Positions 39,224 through 46,952 of a stretch of DNA of 64,000 bases are shown here, piece by piece. The DNA is taken from NCBI RefSeq assembly GCF_918698095.1, contig NZ_CAKKLY010000002.1, positions 186,001 to 250,000 on the forward strand, read 5' to 3'. Both the position numbers and the translations under genes were made by a program. Position 1 is the first letter of the stretch; every line of letters begins with the position of its first letter. Source of the DNA: Arthrobacter sp. Bi83. GTDB lineage: Bacteria; Actinomycetota; Actinomycetes; Actinomycetales; Micrococcaceae. The notes under the pieces were generated by a model. That model made no database searches. It was not told the DNA's origin and saw nothing but the letters and a program-made list of their open reading frames with translations.

Positions 39224-42200
39224 ATGAATCGTTCCTCGAACAGCAGTCTGTCCCCAGCCCTCGTTCTGAGGGCCAGGCGCCTAAGTCTTCTAGGGGGCTC
39301 GGCTCTTCTATCTGCGATGCTGTGCATCGGCGGCGTACTCCCTGTTCAGGCTGCTCCGGCACCGCCGGAAGGCCCGAGCCCTGGCAGCACTGCCGGACCC
39401 CTAACTGGTGCCGCTGGAGCAACAGCAGCGTCCACGCAGGAGCCCGCACCCCCGGCAGTTGATATGGAAGCTCTCCGGGCGGAAATCGGAAAGAACGGCT
39501 CTTACATGGGCCAAGGCGCCAAGAGCCGTTCCGCCCAACTTGTCAGGCAGTCCGGAACAGCGTCGACGTATGCATTGTCCCCGGAAGCCGCCAACACGTG
39601 GATGGCCCCCGGCATTCAGGGCCTTGATGTCAGCAGCCACCAATCCGCTGTCAATTGGGCGGCCCAGTTCAACCTCGGCGCCAGGTTTGCCTACGTTAAG
39701 GCGACGGAGGGGACCACATACAAGAGCGAAACCTTCGGGTCCCAGTACGACGGAGCAGCGGGCGCCGGCCTGATCCGCGGCGCCTACCACTTCGCTCTCC
39801 CAAACGTATCGACGGCGTCCGCCCAGGCCGACTACTTTGTGAACAATGGCGGCGGATGGAGCGGGGACGGCAAGACAATGCCGCCCCTTCTGGACATTGA
39901 GTACAACCCGTACCCTTCGCTTGGCAACACTTGCTACAACATGAGTCAAGCGGCGATGGTCAACTGGATCGCTGCCTTTTCTAACAGGGTTCTGGCCAGG
40001 ACAGGCCGGCTGCCCATGATCTACACCACCACTGACTGGTGGACCACTTGCACCGGAAACTCCGGCGCCTTCAGCAGGCAACCGCTGCATCTTGCCGCTT
40101 ACTCGCGCTACGTGGGCAACATGCCCAACGGCTGGGGAACATACAGCGTCTGGCAGTACAGCAGCACCGGCCCGTTCGCGGGCGACTCGAATGCCTGGAA
40201 CGGCACGCTCGCCGGGCTGCAGAAGTTTGCATCCCAGGCAGACGGCGCCGTGCCTACACCGTCCATCATGTCCTTGGGAGACGTGGTTGCAGCGGACGCG
40301 TCGGGCATCCTGTGGGACTATCCTGCGACCGGGAGCGGAACATTTCGCACGCGGAAGCAAATTGGCCAGGGTTGGAGGGGCCTGCGTTCGATCAATGCCA
40401 TCGACTGGAACGCAGATGGTGTCCTGGACCTCGTCGCCCAATGGAATTCGGGCCGCGTCAACGTCTATCTGGGGATCGCAGCAGGCGGGTTCGCCACGGG
40501 CCCCGTGCTAGCGGCGTCGGGGTGGAACAACTACCAGCTGACGATCGGCTACTGGCTGAACAGCAGCTACTTTCCGCAGGTCATGACACGGGATGATGCA
40601 GGCGGCTTGCGCCTGTGGCGCAATGCCTCGGGTTCAGCACTCAGCGCCGGAACCTCCATCGGCCAGGGCTGGGGCGGACAGAACCTGACCATGATCGACT
40701 TCGACGGCGACGGCAATCAGGACATCCTCGCCCAGAACTCCACCGGCGCACTCCGTCTGTTCCGTTCAGGCGGCAGTGGCGCCTTCCTGTCCGAGGCCCG
40801 CACGACTATTGGCAGTGGCTGGAACAAAATGACGAGCGTTACGGTCACCACGAATTTCAAGGGGGCCGGAACGAACGGCCTCATGGCGCGTAACACCGAG
40901 GGCCAGCTTTCTTACTATCCGGTGCCCGGCAACTCAAGGTGGGGCACCGTCACGAGCATCGGCGTCGGCTGGAACGGCTACCTCATCGCGGGCGGCGAGA
41001 CCATCAACACCACCCCGCCGCCTCCGGCGCCGGTGCCCACGCCATCTATAACCGCGGCCACTGACGTCGTGACCGTAGATGCAGCGGGCAGCCTCTACCG
41101 CCGCGCCACAGGCACAGGATCCATGGGAGCCGCCACAAAGATCGGCACAGGATTTACAGGGATCGCTTCCGTTCACGTTGCCGATTGGAACGCCGACGGA
41201 ATCCAGGACCTAGTCACGTTCAGCACAACGGGAGTGCTCGGCGTCCAGGCCGGGCTGTCAGCCGGAGGCTTTGCCGGGAGGACCGTTTTGGCGTCAGGCC
41301 TTTCCGGCGCGGACATCACGGTGGGCCCCTGGGTCCGGACTTCCAAGTATCCGGGCGTGGTTATCCGCACGGCTACCGGCAACCTCCAGTTCTACCCGAA
41401 TGCATCGGGGGCAGGCCTTGGCCCGGCCACCAGCCTCGGTTCCGGGTTCGCCCGGATGCATGTGTCCATGACCGATGCAGACGGTGACGGCAACCAGGAC
41501 GTGGTCGCCGTTGACTATCTGGGACGGATGACGCTCTTCCGCTCCAGCGGCTCAGGAGCGCTTGTCGCCGAGTCCCGGAAGCTCCTTGCCACCGGGTGGA
41601 ACACGATGAACAGCATCAGTCCTGCCAAGGGCTTCACAGCCCCGGGTTCACATGGAATTCTGGCGCGGGACCGTGCAGGAACACTGAACTACTACCCCCT
41701 GAACCAGGGCGTCCTGGGTGCCAAGTCCGTGCTCACGGCAGGCTGGTCCGGCGTCCTCATTTCCGGAAGCGCCCTCCTGGCCTCAGAGCGGGCGATCACA
41801 AGCACAGCGGATGTGCTCACAGTTGATTCGGCAGGCGGACTATGGAGCCGCCCGGCAGGCGGCTCTGCGGGCGTCGGCGGCGCCTACCAGATTGGGATCG
41901 GCTGGTCAGGAATGAAATCGCTCAACGTTGTGGACTGGAACAGCGATGGCGTTCCAGACGTCCTCGCCCAAAGGTCCACCGGCGCGCTGTCTGCGTACCT
42001 GGGTTCAAGAACGGGCGGCTTCAGCGGACAGATTGCTGTCGCCACAGCAGGCTTTGACCGAAGCACGATCGTTCCCGGCAAATGGGTTTCCGGGTCCACA
42101 TATCCGGGCCTAGTCGGTTATGGCGCCAACGGTGAGTTGAGTTATTGGGCAAATGCATCCGGAGGGGCGGTCGGCGCCCCTGTTCGTATTGGCGTCGGCT

Positions 42201-42541
42201 GGGGAGGCTTGAAGTTGGCCATGATTGACTACGATTTCGATGGAAAGCAGGACCTTCTGGCTGTCAATACAGCGGGTTCCATGAAGCTCTACCGCTCCAC
42301 CGGACTCAACAAATTCATCCCGGAAACCAGAAAAGTAGTCGGCTCCGGATGGCAGAACTTCCGCCAGTTCTCCGCCACCGCAGGTTTTTCCGGCGCTGCC
42401 AGCAAGGGTGTCTTGGCTGTGCGTACCTCGGGAGAGCTACGCTACTACCCGGTGCTGGCCGGCAGCAGGTGGGGCACAGCGTGGACGGCAGGATCGGTGG
42501 GCACGGCGGCACTCGTTTCGGCGTCGTCCGCCGCGGGCTAG
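39224..42541 (+). CDS. Secreted GH25 muramidase with three FG-GAP/VCBS-type modules
   Basis: A 1105-residue exported enzyme. A signal peptide ends near LPVQAAPAPP. A Pro/Thr/Ala-rich linker leads to a GH25 lysozyme domain (about 125-335) with IQGLDVSSHQSAVNW and LLDIEYNPYP, the acidic catalytic pair. Then come three modules of about 250 residues (from about 344, 605 and 850), each with Asp-rich metal loops such as DWNADGVLDLV and DFDGDGNQDIL, joined by short linkers, one of them PPPPAPVPTPS. The modules resemble FG-GAP beta-propeller blades and probably bind the cell wall or another surface. It should cleave the glycan backbone of peptidoglycan. Convergent with the next gene. Confidence 0.86.
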   Translation: MNRSSNSSLSPALVLRARRLSLLGGSALLSAMLCIGGVLPVQAAPAPPEGPSPGSTAGPLTGAAGATAASTQEPAPPAVDMEALRAEIGKNGSYMGQGAKSRSAQLVRQSGTASTYALSPEAANTWMAPGIQGLDVSSHQSAVNWAAQFNLGARFAYVKATEGTTYKSETFGSQYDGAAGAGLIRGAYHFALPNVSTASAQADYFVNNGGGWSGDGKTMPPLLDIEYNPYPSLGNTCYNMSQAAMVNWIAAFSNRVLARTGRLPMIYTTTDWWTTCTGNSGAFSRQPLHLAAYSRYVGNMPNGWGTYSVWQYSSTGPFAGDSNAWNGTLAGLQKFASQADGAVPTPSIMSLGDVVAADASGILWDYPATGSGTFRTRKQIGQGWRGLRSINAIDWNADGVLDLVAQWNSGRVNVYLGIAAGGFATGPVLAASGWNNYQLTIGYWLNSSYFPQVMTRDDAGGLRLWRNASGSALSAGTSIGQGWGGQNLTMIDFDGDGNQDILAQNSTGALRLFRSGGSGAFLSEARTTIGSGWNKMTSVTVTTNFKGAGTNGLMARNTEGQLSYYPVPGNSRWGTVTSIGVGWNGYLIAGGETINTTPPPPAPVPTPSITAATDVVTVDAAGSLYRRATGTGSMGAATKIGTGFTGIASVHVADWNADGIQDLVTFSTTGVLGVQAGLSAGGFAGRTVLASGLSGADITVGPWVRTSKYPGVVIRTATGNLQFYPNASGAGLGPATSLGSGFARMHVSMTDADGDGNQDVVAVDYLGRMTLFRSSGSGALVAESRKLLATGWNTMNSISPAKGFTAPGSHGILARDRAGTLNYYPLNQGVLGAKSVLTAGWSGVLISGSALLASERAITSTADVLTVDSAGGLWSRPAGGSAGVGGAYQIGIGWSGMKSLNVVDWNSDGVPDVLAQRSTGALSAYLGSRTGGFSGQIAVATAGFDRSTIVPGKWVSGSTYPGLVGYGANGELSYWANASGGAVGAPVRIGVGWGGLKLAMIDYDFDGKQDLLAVNTAGSMKLYRSTGLNKFIPETRKVVGSGWQNFRQFSATAGFSGAASKGVLAVRTSGELRYYPVLAGSRWGTAWTAGSVGTAALVSASSAAG

Positions 42542-42619: not shown

Positions 42620-43771
42620 CTAGGCGCGGGCGTGGCGGGAACCCACGATGTCCTCGACCGCTTTCTGCCACGCCATCACCTGGGATTGGGCCGAGAGCGG
42701 CCGGGCTGCAGCATCCGCAGCCCTCTTCCACATGGATATCTTTTCGGCGGTTAGGCTATGGAGTGTTTCGCGCAAAGAGCCGGCAGAAAAATCGGGTGTC
42801 ACGGCGCCCAATCCGTACTGCTCCACGAGTGACACCATGGCCGGTGATGGGCCTACGATCAGGCCGATGCGCGCCTGGACGGCTTCGAAGAACTTATTCG
42901 GCAACGCGTTCTTGAGATTGAAGTTGGTGGGCGGCAGGAACACGAGTGAGACGTCATATTCGCTCAGGGTGGACACCAGCCGGCTGTACGGCACTGGGTC
43001 GCGGAAGCGGATCGCCGGCACTGCTGCGGCCTTCTCCTTGAGCTCAGCGACGTAATCCGGCTCGTTGGGCATGACGATCATGTCAAGGGTGAGCCAATCC
43101 GGTGCGTCCCGCATTGCCTCGATGAAGTTTTCAAGCTTCCGGTAGCGCTGCCCGGCAGCGCTGTGGATCAGGCGCACCGGCGAGCCGACAGGGCGCACGT
43201 CCCGCTCGGAGTATGGTGCCGCGTTAGTCACGACTCCGGCCGCCACCCCGTAGTCCTTGGTGTACTCGTCAGCTATGCCTTGCGAGACGGTGGTGACGGA
43301 GGCGGCGAGGGACAAGTAGCGGCGGCAAAGCCATCGCATGAACGGTGCAACGAACAGGCGCCATTTCAGGTCGTCCTCTTTTTCGCGCGGTGCGAATTCG
43401 TGGAGGTCCGCATGGACCCCGAGCCGCGGCTCGAGCTCCAGCGCCAGCGGCAACGTGTTCAGGTCATTCGCCAGGATGATGTCGAATTCGCCGTGCGGCA
43501 AGACCTTCCGTGCAGCCGACACGGCAGTCAATCCGTCATAAACGCGGGAATAGCGGCGCGACACAAGGCCCAGCTTGTCCGACGGCCAGCCGCGCGAGTC
43601 ATCGGGCAAAGCGAAGTGACCTTCGGTTCCCTCCGGGGCCCCACCGTAGGCACACGTGAACACCCGGTACGTGTCTTTGAACAGCTCGACCTGCTTGAGG
43701 ACCCTCGGATCCGAGCGTAGGGGTGAGAAGGTCAGGATCAGCAGCGAGGGGAGCTCAGTCATATGACTCAT
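42620..43771 (-). CDS. Glycosyltransferase, GT4-like
   Basis: A 383-residue GT-B glycosyltransferase with the N-terminal LLILTFSPLRSDPRVLKQV and a C-terminal part containing NKFFEAVQARIGLIVGPSPAMVSLVEQYGLGAVT that resembles the sugar-nucleotide site. It is the last gene of the surface-polysaccharide operon that is interrupted by the IS element just upstream, so its expression may depend on the insertion. The start ATG has another ATG four codons in; no clear ribosome binding site was seen for the first. Confidence 0.7.
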   Translation of the reverse strand: MSHMTELPSLLILTFSPLRSDPRVLKQVELFKDTYRVFTCAYGGAPEGTEGHFALPDDSRGWPSDKLGLVSRRYSRVYDGLTAVSAARKVLPHGEFDIILANDLNTLPLALELEPRLGVHADLHEFAPREKEDDLKWRLFVAPFMRWLCRRYLSLAASVTTVSQGIADEYTKDYGVAAGVVTNAAPYSERDVRPVGSPVRLIHSAAGQRYRKLENFIEAMRDAPDWLTLDMIVMPNEPDYVAELKEKAAAVPAIRFRDPVPYSRLVSTLSEYDVSLVFLPPTNFNLKNALPNKFFEAVQARIGLIVGPSPAMVSLVEQYGLGAVTPDFSAGSLRETLHSLTAEKISMWKRAADAAARPLSAQSQVMAWQKAVEDIVGSRHARA

Positions 43772-43857
43772 TATCCCAGACGCCCGTGCGCCGTTCAGCC
43801 GGGCACTGACGATGTACCGGGCGCCCCTCGGGCGAATGCGTGGGACGGCCGGAAGGA

Positions 43858-43916
43858 CTAGAAGATGCTTCTGAGCAGCGGAACGCGGCGAGCAGCCTGC
43901 GAAACGGCAAATCTGC
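43858..43916 (-). pseudogene. 3' remnant of the IS-interrupted acyltransferase
   Basis: On the - strand, continuing across the insertion point in frame, this stretch reads FAVSQAARRVPLLRSIF followed by TAG. Joined to the last residues before the insertion (AVTLVGR), it rebuilds a normal acyltransferase-3 C-terminus. It includes one copy of the 5-bp target duplication (43912-43916). Confidence 0.75.
43912..43916. repeat. Target-site duplication, left copy
   Basis: TCTGC directly flanking the left IS end; identical to 46047-46051. Confidence 0.85.
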
Positions 43917-43923
43917 TGTTAAC

Positions 43924-43968
43924 GCCAACCGAAAATAGGGCCATTAGTGCCAATTGAAAACGGGGCCA
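43924..43968. repeat. Left-end IstA-type repeats
   Basis: Two 20-bp copies at 43924-43943 (GCCAACCGAAAATAGGGCCA) and 43949-43968 (GCCAATTGAAAACGGGGCCA), start to start 25 bp, matched in inverted orientation at the right end. Confidence 0.85.
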
Positions 43969-43981
43969 CGGGGTTGTGGTT

Positions 43982-44740
43982 CTATTGTGCCGTTCTGGCG
44001 GCGGGCTGGTGTTTCTTGAGCCGATAGCTGTTGCCTTTGAGGCTGATGACCTCGGCGTGGTGGACGATCCGGTCGATCATGGCCGAGGCGATGGTCAGGT
44101 CACCGAAGACGTCGCCCCAGCGGGCGAACGGAAGGTTCGAGGTCAGGATCATGGATGCGTGTTCGTAGCGGCTCGATACGAGCTGGAAGAACAGGTTCGC
44201 GGCGTCCTGATCGAACGGGATATAGCCCACTTCATCGACTATGAGCAATCCATAGCGGCGGAGTTTGACCAGTTCCTGGGCGAGTTTCCCACGGGAGTGG
44301 GCTTCCTGCAGTCGGGCGACCCAGCCGGTCGCTGAGTCGAAGAGGACCCGATGCCCGGCCTTGGCTGCCTTGATGCCGATGCCGACCGCGAGGTGGGTTT
44401 TGCCGGTGCCGGGTGGCCCGAGCAGGACCACGTTTTTGGCTTCGGAGAGGAACACCCCGGTGCCCAGGTGCGCGATGAGGTTCCGGTCCGCGGAGGGCTG
44501 GTGGTCGAAGTTGAACTCCTCGAGGTCCTTGTGGTCCGGGAACCTCGCGGCCTTGATCCTGGTGGCAGCCCCGGAGGCTTCGCGTTCGGAGACTTCACGG
44601 GAGAGGACCGCGGCCAGGTACTCCTCATGGGACCAGCCGGCGTCCCGGGCCTGGTCCCCAAGCCGGCGGAACCCGTCGCTGATCCGCGGGGCGCGCAGGG
44701 CGCGGGCGTAGTACTCGATCTGTGACGGTGTCCCGCTCAT
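43982..44740 (-). CDS. istB: IS21 helper ATPase IstB
   Basis: A 252-residue AAA+ ATPase of the DnaC-like IstB family. Walker A is LGPPGTGKTHLAVGIG, Walker B LLIVDEVGYIPFD, then LTSNLPFARWGDVFGDLTIASAMIDRI. It directs target selection and activates IstA. It starts at an ATG overlapping the istA stop (ATGA). Full length for the family. Confidence 0.92.
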   Translation of the reverse strand: MSGTPSQIEYYARALRAPRISDGFRRLGDQARDAGWSHEEYLAAVLSREVSEREASGAATRIKAARFPDHKDLEEFNFDHQPSADRNLIAHLGTGVFLSEAKNVVLLGPPGTGKTHLAVGIGIKAAKAGHRVLFDSATGWVARLQEAHSRGKLAQELVKLRRYGLLIVDEVGYIPFDQDAANLFFQLVSSRYEHASMILTSNLPFARWGDVFGDLTIASAMIDRIVHHAEVISLKGNSYRLKKHQPAARTAQ

Positions 44741-45978
44741 GAGGCCACCTCCAGGACCAGGTTCGGCTGGCCGAGATCGATGCCGAAAATCTCGTCGTAG
44801 GCGGCCAAGTCCCGCACCTGCACTGCTTCCTCTGGTTCGGGGCGGCGCACCCTTTGGGTCCGGAAGTCCCGGCGCATCACCGCCGCGCGGGCCACACGGA
44901 CAGGATCGGTCACCACCAGATGCCGGGCCCATGCCCGGACATGGGTGGCGATGATGACACCCTCGTGGGTCACCCAGATGGTGTCCAGGTCAGCGACGAC
45001 GTCAACGATCCGCCCGATGAACGAAGGGTCCACGGAATAGTCGTTGGAGAACACGCGAACGTAGTAGTCCCGCGGGAGCCGCACGGCGTTCCGGAACACC
45101 GCCTCCGGGCTCACCGGCGGCAGTTCCCGCATCCTTTCCCGGTCCAGGACGATCAGCTCATCAGGGCGTCCGTGGCGGGACCGCGAGTAGCGGTGATTAG
45201 CTTTGGGCAGCCAGTCCTCCAGCTGGCCGTTGAAGTCCGCTGGTGACCGGAACTCCCGGCCGGGCATGAAGCGTTGCCGGAAGAACCTGTTCATCCGCTC
45301 GACCATGCCCTTGGACTCCGGATCCCGCGGCGGAAGCAGCTTGATCTCCAAACCCAGCGACCCGGCGAACGCGGCCACCGGCTCTGTCGGTTTGCGCCTG
45401 CCGATGCCGGACTCGTTGTCCCACAAGAGCCGGAACGGGACCGCCTGTGCGTCCTGCAGCAGAGTCCACATTCCGCCCAGAAGATCCGGCGTTGTCCGCG
45501 ACGGCAGCATCCGGGCCTGGATAAATCCCGAGAACGCAGAGGTCATCACCAGTACCGGGGGCGTGTCGTTCTGGCCCGCACCGACGGGCAGCGGCTCGTG
45601 CGGGAACCAGAGATCGCACTGGACCTGGAACCCCGGCTCGTGGACCAGACGGTCGGCCGGGTCCGGCGGTGCGTATTCAGGCCGGATCACGGCGACCTTC
45701 GCACGGAACAAAGACGCGGAACCAGACCAGCCCACCCGCTCCGCCAACGTCGCCGCCGGCATCGTCGGCGTCTTCGCCAACAACTCCCGAACCCGAGGAG
45801 CAAACGCATCAAAACTCGACACACCCGACGCCCGCTGATACTTCGGCGCCCGATCCGACTCCAGCGCCCGATCCACGGTTCCGCGGGAAACCCCCACGAT
45901 CCTGCCGATCTCCCGCTTCGAGTGCTTGCCCGTCGAAAACAGGTGGCGTATCTCCGCCCAATCATCCAAATTGATCAC
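44737..45978 (-). CDS. istA: IS21 transposase IstA
   Basis: A 413-residue DDE transposase. It has an N-terminal HTH (HSKREIGRIVGVSRGTVDRAL), a CDLWFPHEPLP region with the first catalytic Asp, LLWDNESGIG with the second, and VERMNRFFRQRF carrying the Glu. No frameshift is visible, so the element is probably active. Confidence 0.92.
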   Translation of the reverse strand: MINLDDWAEIRHLFSTGKHSKREIGRIVGVSRGTVDRALESDRAPKYQRASGVSSFDAFAPRVRELLAKTPTMPAATLAERVGWSGSASLFRAKVAVIRPEYAPPDPADRLVHEPGFQVQCDLWFPHEPLPVGAGQNDTPPVLVMTSAFSGFIQARMLPSRTTPDLLGGMWTLLQDAQAVPFRLLWDNESGIGRRKPTEPVAAFAGSLGLEIKLLPPRDPESKGMVERMNRFFRQRFMPGREFRSPADFNGQLEDWLPKANHRYSRSRHGRPDELIVLDRERMRELPPVSPEAVFRNAVRLPRDYYVRVFSNDYSVDPSFIGRIVDVVADLDTIWVTHEGVIIATHVRAWARHLVVTDPVRVARAAVMRRDFRTQRVRRPEPEEAVQVRDLAAYDEIFGIDLGQPNLVLEVAS

Positions 45979-45994
45979 CTTCCATAATGGTCGG

Positions 45995-46039
45995 TGGCCC
46001 TATTTTCAGTTGGCGTTCCTGGCCCTATTTTCGGTTGGC
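45995..46039. repeat. Right-end IstA-type repeats
   Basis: Two 20-bp copies at 45995-46014 (TGGCCCTATTTTCAGTTGGC) and 46020-46039 (TGGCCCTATTTTCGGTTGGC), the inverted counterpart of the left-end pair. Confidence 0.85.
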
Positions 46040-46046
46040 GTTAACA

Positions 46047-46051
46047 TCTGC
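46047..46051. repeat. Target-site duplication, right copy
   Basis: TCTGC flanking the right IS end. Confidence 0.85.
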
Positions 46052-46952
46052 CGACCAGTGTAACGGCATAGGCAGCGAAGATGGCGGTGAGGGATTTACC
46101 GGCTGCAACTTCCGGAAATTGAAGCCGGATGACTTCAAAGATGACGAGGTGTACCAAGAAGACGCCGAAAGTTGCATTCGACAGTTCTGTCAGAGCCTTC
46201 CCGGCGCGGCTGACTTTCAGTTTGGCAGCAAGAGACAGCGTCACGACGAACACTCCCAGTCCCGTATGGCAACGCCGATCCCGAGGTAGGAGACGGAAAC
46301 TACGGCGTGGAGCAGGCGGAATTCTCCCCTGTTGCCGTAGTGCCAGATGGTTCCGGCAATAATTCCGCCCGTTGTCACGGTTGCCAATGCCAGCTTCACG
46401 CCGTGAGGCGCACATTGCGCAACGCGTACACGGCCAAGAAGTAGCCCACGTACGGAGTCCAGTGCGTCAGAAAGTTGAGGCGGACGGGACTAACGGCCCC
46501 ATAGGGGCCCAGTACCCCCGGAAGCATGTAAACAACCAGCGCCACTGCAAGGAAGGCGGAAGCAGTGGCAGGTCCTCGCCCGCGTCCAAAGCCTTACTCC
46601 GATGAGATAGATAAGGTTCCACGCAACGAGTAGGGGATGAGCCGAACTGCCCGGCGCCGGTAGAACAGACGCGGCTGGTTCGAGACCATGCGGGACCCGA
46701 GGATGAGCGCCCCGGAGATCATGGCAAAAACGGGCACAACCCAGATCCAACCTACGTCTAGCACCACGGCGATCCACCAGCGCAGGCTCTCGCGCGGCGC
46801 CCGGCCCACGATGTAGCCGAAGACGTGGATCGACACGACGCCGCAGATGCTCCCGACGCGCAGGATGTCCAGCCCACATTCCCGAAAGGGGCACGATCGG
46901 GGCTGCGGTCGGGAGCGTGCAGTTCGCTGGGCTCGCTGACCCGAACAGGCAC
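46047..46952 (-). pseudogene. Acyltransferase family 3 gene, frameshifted and interrupted by IS21
   Basis: Reading the - strand from a GTG at 46952, acyltransferase segments appear in shifting frames: PFGNVGW, then ILRVGSICGVVSIHVFGYIVG, LLVAWNLIYLIGVRLW, ASAFLAVALVVYMLPGVLG, NFLTHWTPYVGYFLAVYALR, GIIAGTIWHYGNRGEFRLL, and GVFVVTLSLAAKLKV with FGVFLVHLVIFEVIRLQFPE at the C-terminal side. At least five frame changes are needed, so no full protein can be made. The insertion then cuts the last 17 residues. Original length about 320-340 residues. The GTG overlaps the previous stop (TAGTG). Confidence 0.8.

Follow-up and report, generated by a model that had tools for sequence, protein, structure and literature searches.

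Introduction

In IS21 elements, the IstA transposase joins both element ends to the target, which the IstB ATPase helps to position. A published account of the family (PMC10122671) describes ends that each consist of two repeated units (L1/L2 and R1/R2) with a terminal CA, and insertions bordered by 5-bp direct repeats. We analyzed a window of 64,000 nucleotides of Arthrobacter sp. Bi83 DNA, which lies inside one 312,636-bp contig of a draft assembly of 121 contigs, and which carries an IS21-family element of 2130 bp (43917-46046) at the 3′ end of an acyltransferase gene. Here we compare the element, the gene it entered, and the glycosyltransferase gene downstream of it with their counterparts in other genomes.

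The IS21-Family Element

The element has the ends and the flanks of an IS21 insertion. TCTGC stands on both sides of it (left copy, 43912-43916; right copy, 46047-46051) as a perfect 5-bp target-site duplication, and the outer terminal inverted repeats (43917-43943 on the left, 46020-46046 on the right) are exact reverse complements over 27 of 27 bp. Comparing one end with the other revealed an additional inner repeat on each side, L2-like at 43944-43969 and R2-like at 45995-46017, and the full ends (43917-43969 and 45994-46046) agree at 87% over 53 nt, each end being made of two repeat units. Repeated end units with a terminal CA are thus found together with a 5-bp target duplication, the combination expected of IS21.

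Two genes occupy the minus strand between these ends, and both frames are open. The first, istA (44737-45978), encodes a DDE transposase of 413 aa that scores 165.5 bits against the NF033546 family model, above the curated cut-off of 160, and that also matches PF22483 and the IS5376 transposase (8q4d, 8b4h). The acidic residues of its QCDLW, WDNE, and KGMVER motifs (D, D, and E) align with a D, a D, and an E of the IS5376 transposase, which we take to be the catalytic DDE residues of that enzyme. When istA was aligned to eight relatives, three to six gap columns were needed and the frame was still open. Directly after istA, as is typical of IS21 elements, lies istB (43982-44740), which encodes an AAA+ helper ATPase of 252 aa (PF01695, 259 bits; NF038214, 284.8 bits, cut-off 200). 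The istB frame stays open further upstream, to 44932, and we set its start to the ATG at 44740 because the frame begins there in several related elements; with that start the two genes overlap by 4 nt. Judged from these features, the element appears complete and is possibly still functional. A preliminary description of this DNA had reported an intact IS21 element at 43912-46051 with in-frame istA and istB, 27-bp identical ends, and a TCTGC duplication; the repeats are exact, the coordinates are correct with both duplication copies included, and the gene assignments pass curated cut-offs.

Copies and Relatives of the Element

A DNA search of the strain's own assembly found a single copy of the element, besides which only its two ends matched each other. 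Six IstB-family matches occur in the same genome, one of them full-length. A search of this genome for stray element ends returned nothing beyond the control, the three 13-base matches (one mismatch) being equal in number to those of a reversed pattern.

Related elements are widespread in the genus. With an E-value limit of 0.001, matches occur in 129 of 198 genus genomes (own included), many weak ones among them, and among the matches listed, near-full-length copies of 88-93% identity are present in at least 14 other genus genomes. Of 11 related loci that were fetched (L004-L014), 10 have full-length istA and istB, istA being split in L012. Two loci that lack one end were left out of the comparison of flanks, and eight of the remaining nine copies carry a 5-6 bp duplication, read by eye and different in sequence in each. 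L006 (1501-3630) has both ends of a related copy and no target duplication, a pattern such as is left after recombination between copies. In G170, a near-full-length copy occupies positions 1-2117 of contig 1, at the very start of a single-contig genome's record.

Among 72,556 plasmid records, four gave partial megablast matches to the element and none a full one, and IstA relatives on plasmids reach 71% identity among the best 15 of 3286 matching records. No close element bearing a name was found in these plasmid-record searches. In a separate comparison with related elements of 75-80% identity from five genomes (G013, G051, G099, G102, and G168), the stretch 44719-44984, which encodes the C-terminal part of IstA, was unmatched between matched sequence on both sides and was of about equal length; the IstA tail in those elements is possibly fast-changing or exchanged.

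The Target Gene and Its Empty Site

The insertion cuts off the final 17 codons of an acyltransferase-3 gene that belongs to a glycan gene cluster. The main part of this gene, now a pseudogene, is at 46052-46952 (minus strand), and the 3′ remnant severed by the element, delimited by joining the flanks and by the relatives' alignment, comprises the last 17 codons and the stop (43858-43911, minus strand). The gene yields only minus-strand fragments against Acyl_transf_3 (PF01757), at 23.8 and 19.3 bits where the cut-off is 31, and is a remnant of a member of that family.

The preliminary description had proposed that excision restores the end of the host gene, and the flanks joined in silico without the element indeed read ...AVTLVGR-FAVSQAARRVPLLRSIF-stop. 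From 44 loci of named relatives, we inspected the first 17 in the list (L033-L049) for frames preceding the glycosyltransferase. In 14 of these 17 (L033-L041, L044-L047, and L049), an open frame of 363-403 codons precedes that gene, and L042, L043, and L048 have no acyltransferase-sized frame directly before it. All 14 aligned relatives cross the insertion point without a gap and continue to a matching protein end; the site is empty in each, and the empty-site reading is therefore right. Nor were element ends (22 nt, up to three substitutions) found in any of the 44 loci, which span 6-13 kb each, so that the same insertion with decayed ends, the observation named beforehand as speaking against the proposal, did not appear among these relatives. 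That the insertion is recent, as was also proposed, is weakly supported: the open frames and the intact duplication fit this, but the identical ends say little about age, because transposition presumably needs them.

Further Lesions in the Acyltransferase

The target gene had been identified correctly in the preliminary description, but further breaks in it, independent of the insertion, had been missed. Relative to the 14 aligned relatives, the gene carries six private indels (near 46906, 46632, 46580, 46569, 46403, and 46265), namely an insertion of 4 bases and deletions of 1, 1, 142, 1, and 1 bases, none of them a multiple of three. Of the six, the 4-base insertion, in a variable and poorly alignable N-terminal region, is the least secure. 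The second to fourth indels are packed into about 64 bp. Their lengths total 144 bases, which puts the gene back in frame, but translation would run into a stop within this stretch. Because they are close together and add up in this way, these three may represent one (complex) event, and the number of independent events behind the six indels may be no more than three or four.

Mapped onto its A. globiformis orthologue, the acyltransferase is split into three segments, each in a different frame. Sequencing or assembly errors might produce such a picture, given that four of the six indels are single-base deletions in a draft of 121 contigs; however, base calling does not explain a 142-bp deletion, and each of seven neighboring genes maps to its A. 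globiformis orthologue in one unbroken frame. We therefore regard errors as a very improbable source of the frameshifts and treat the lesions as real.

The decay itself appears to be recent, since no in-register stop precedes the natural stop of the gene and relaxed selection is only weakly visible in the substitutions. Changes at second and third codon positions number 15:40 in the window lineage and 6:44 in the A. globiformis lineage (Fisher p 0.056), and first plus second against third positions give p 0.39 for the same two lineages. Among 206 genus genomes, 24 of which (own included) matched the locus, no other strain with these lesions came up. The five best other genomes match it at 75-76% over about 790 bases; for two of these (G151 and G157) a second piece is listed, split at the site of the 142-bp deletion. 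The other matching genomes align only over a stretch of 265-331 bases at the DUF2304 end.

Order of Events

Read from one genome, the pattern of lesions suggests that the acyltransferase most likely decayed mostly before the element arrived, because indels broke this gene and none broke istA, istB, or the seven neighbors. Alternatively, the insertion may have been the initial event that inactivated the gene, by taking off its last 17 residues, the remaining indels gathering later in a gene already dead. The weak relaxation in the substitutions would suit this, as decay is then recent and a single trigger conceivable. Such an order predicts equal decay of the gene and of the element within it, yet six frame-breaking changes are seen in the 955 bp of the acyltransferase and none in the 1997 bp of IS coding sequence. 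Under even placement, with equal neutral decay and independent lesions assumed, the probability that all lesions fall in the gene by chance is 0.001 for six lesions, 0.011 for four, and 0.034 for three, and with just three indel events the numerical argument is modest. We consider insertion first unlikely, while giving it some weight. A more speculative thought, to which we attach hardly any credence, is that the six indels reflect a local mutation burst tied to transposition or repair and not slow neutral decay; it is suggested by their clustering in the one gene that holds the insertion, by the lack of an early stop, and by the sparing of the seven neighbors.

With decay mostly preceding the insertion, the element would have entered a gene that was already, or was becoming, a pseudogene, and the insertion was thus probably neutral. 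Excision of the element would not revive the gene, owing to the further indels.

The Downstream Glycosyltransferase

The gene downstream of the element encodes a GT4-type glycosyltransferase, for which we propose the coordinates 42620-43762 (minus strand). The preliminary description had started it at 43771; comparison with the relatives makes 43762 the most likely start, as this is the conserved one and the ATG at 43771 overlaps a conserved −10-like block (43769-43780, minus strand) whose GATAAT lies 7 nt ahead of the start codon at 43762. On the other side of the same glycosyltransferase, an open frame of 1105 aa with a secreted-looking start (39224-42541, plus strand) adjoins it, as it does in A. 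globiformis too; by eye, its product may be a repeat-bearing wall hydrolase of the GH25 type.

The −10-like block is a run of 12 columns, TC[TG]GG[GA]AT[AG]ATG, that is kept in 15 aligned rows (the window and 14 relatives) with nine columns 93-100% identical; in the spacer ahead of it, the commonest base averages 53% over 39 scored columns. In 19 of the 44 loci, all 14 aligned relatives among them, a hexamer [AG]AT[AG]AT ends 6-7 nt ahead of the ATG; it is absent from the other 25, which are mostly those of lower identity to the query. Within the start regions of these 44 loci, 19 of the 70 ATGs follow such a hexamer, as against 41 of 12,704 ATGs on both strands of the same loci, a control that includes the 19 and, like the whole comparison, ignores the relatedness of the loci. 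Genome-wide, the 12-base form has a single occurrence; in the window, too, there is one, against a mean of 0.57 expected there by chance with one mismatch allowed. The support for the element is its conservation, not its rarity.

In published work, leaderless genes, which are frequent in actinobacteria, are recognized by a −10 box some 12 bp ahead of the start codon (PMC3160421; PMC3898074). The spacing found here agrees, the first base of GATAAT lying 13 nt before the ATG; relative to the TANNNT consensus the match is imperfect, as [AG]AT[AG]AT keeps the second-position A and the last T without the first T. We infer that the block is probably a private leaderless promoter of the glycosyltransferase.

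The preliminary description had also suggested that the element may block or drive this gene. Control by the element, through a polar block or outward transcription, would be helped by the shared orientation of element and glycosyltransferase, and a simple scan detected no minus-strand terminator-like site from istB to the glycosyltransferase, so read-through is possible. Between the insertion and the start, however, stands the gene's own conserved −10-like element, which is also kept in L042, L043, and L048, where no acyltransferase-sized frame (judged by frame length only) directly precedes the glycosyltransferase. As 136 bp separate the end of the IS element (43917) from the block, the latter is intact. 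A simple consensus scan that required a −35 box found no promoter-like site in 43600-46300; it weighs little, since with that requirement it missed the −10-like element too. Control of the glycosyltransferase by the element is accordingly improbable in our estimation. Its own promoter most likely adjoins the ATG of the glycosyltransferase, so this gene should not need the element, and a polar or activating effect of the insertion is possible and not needed.

Discussion and Comparison With Known Systems

Taken together, we consider it quite probable that an acyltransferase-3 gene already dead or dying through other indels received an IS21-family element in its 3′ end, with formation of the 5-bp duplication and probably neutral consequences, and that the glycosyltransferase would be served by a leaderless-type promoter of its own just before its ATG, independent of the element. 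The analysis places one more IS21 copy, shows that the insertion is not the only reason why the acyltransferase is a pseudogene, and offers a revised start for the glycosyltransferase together with a proposed private promoter; beyond annotation, it adds little. The locus is a small example of an element at a site where harm is probably small.

The closest intact counterparts of the target are the Acyl_transf_3 genes of A. globiformis NBRC 12137 and Arthrobacter sp. ISL-5, which have the neighborhood and the protein end of the gene in the window; unlike it, they are open, encode 365 aa, and are free of the insertion. The related IS21 elements (L004-L014) have the same ends and gene layout at 90.6-92.8% nucleotide identity. 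They differ from the element described here by about 7-9% nucleotide divergence, by the split istA of L012 and, in the nine copies with both ends, by other flanking bases. The IS5376 transposase is distant from this IstA in sequence (33 bits, phmmer). With the described members of the family, IS21 and IS5376, the element shares a DDE transposase and an AAA+ helper encoded by overlapping genes, two-unit ends, a terminal CA, and a 5-bp duplication, and it differs from them in nothing of kind.
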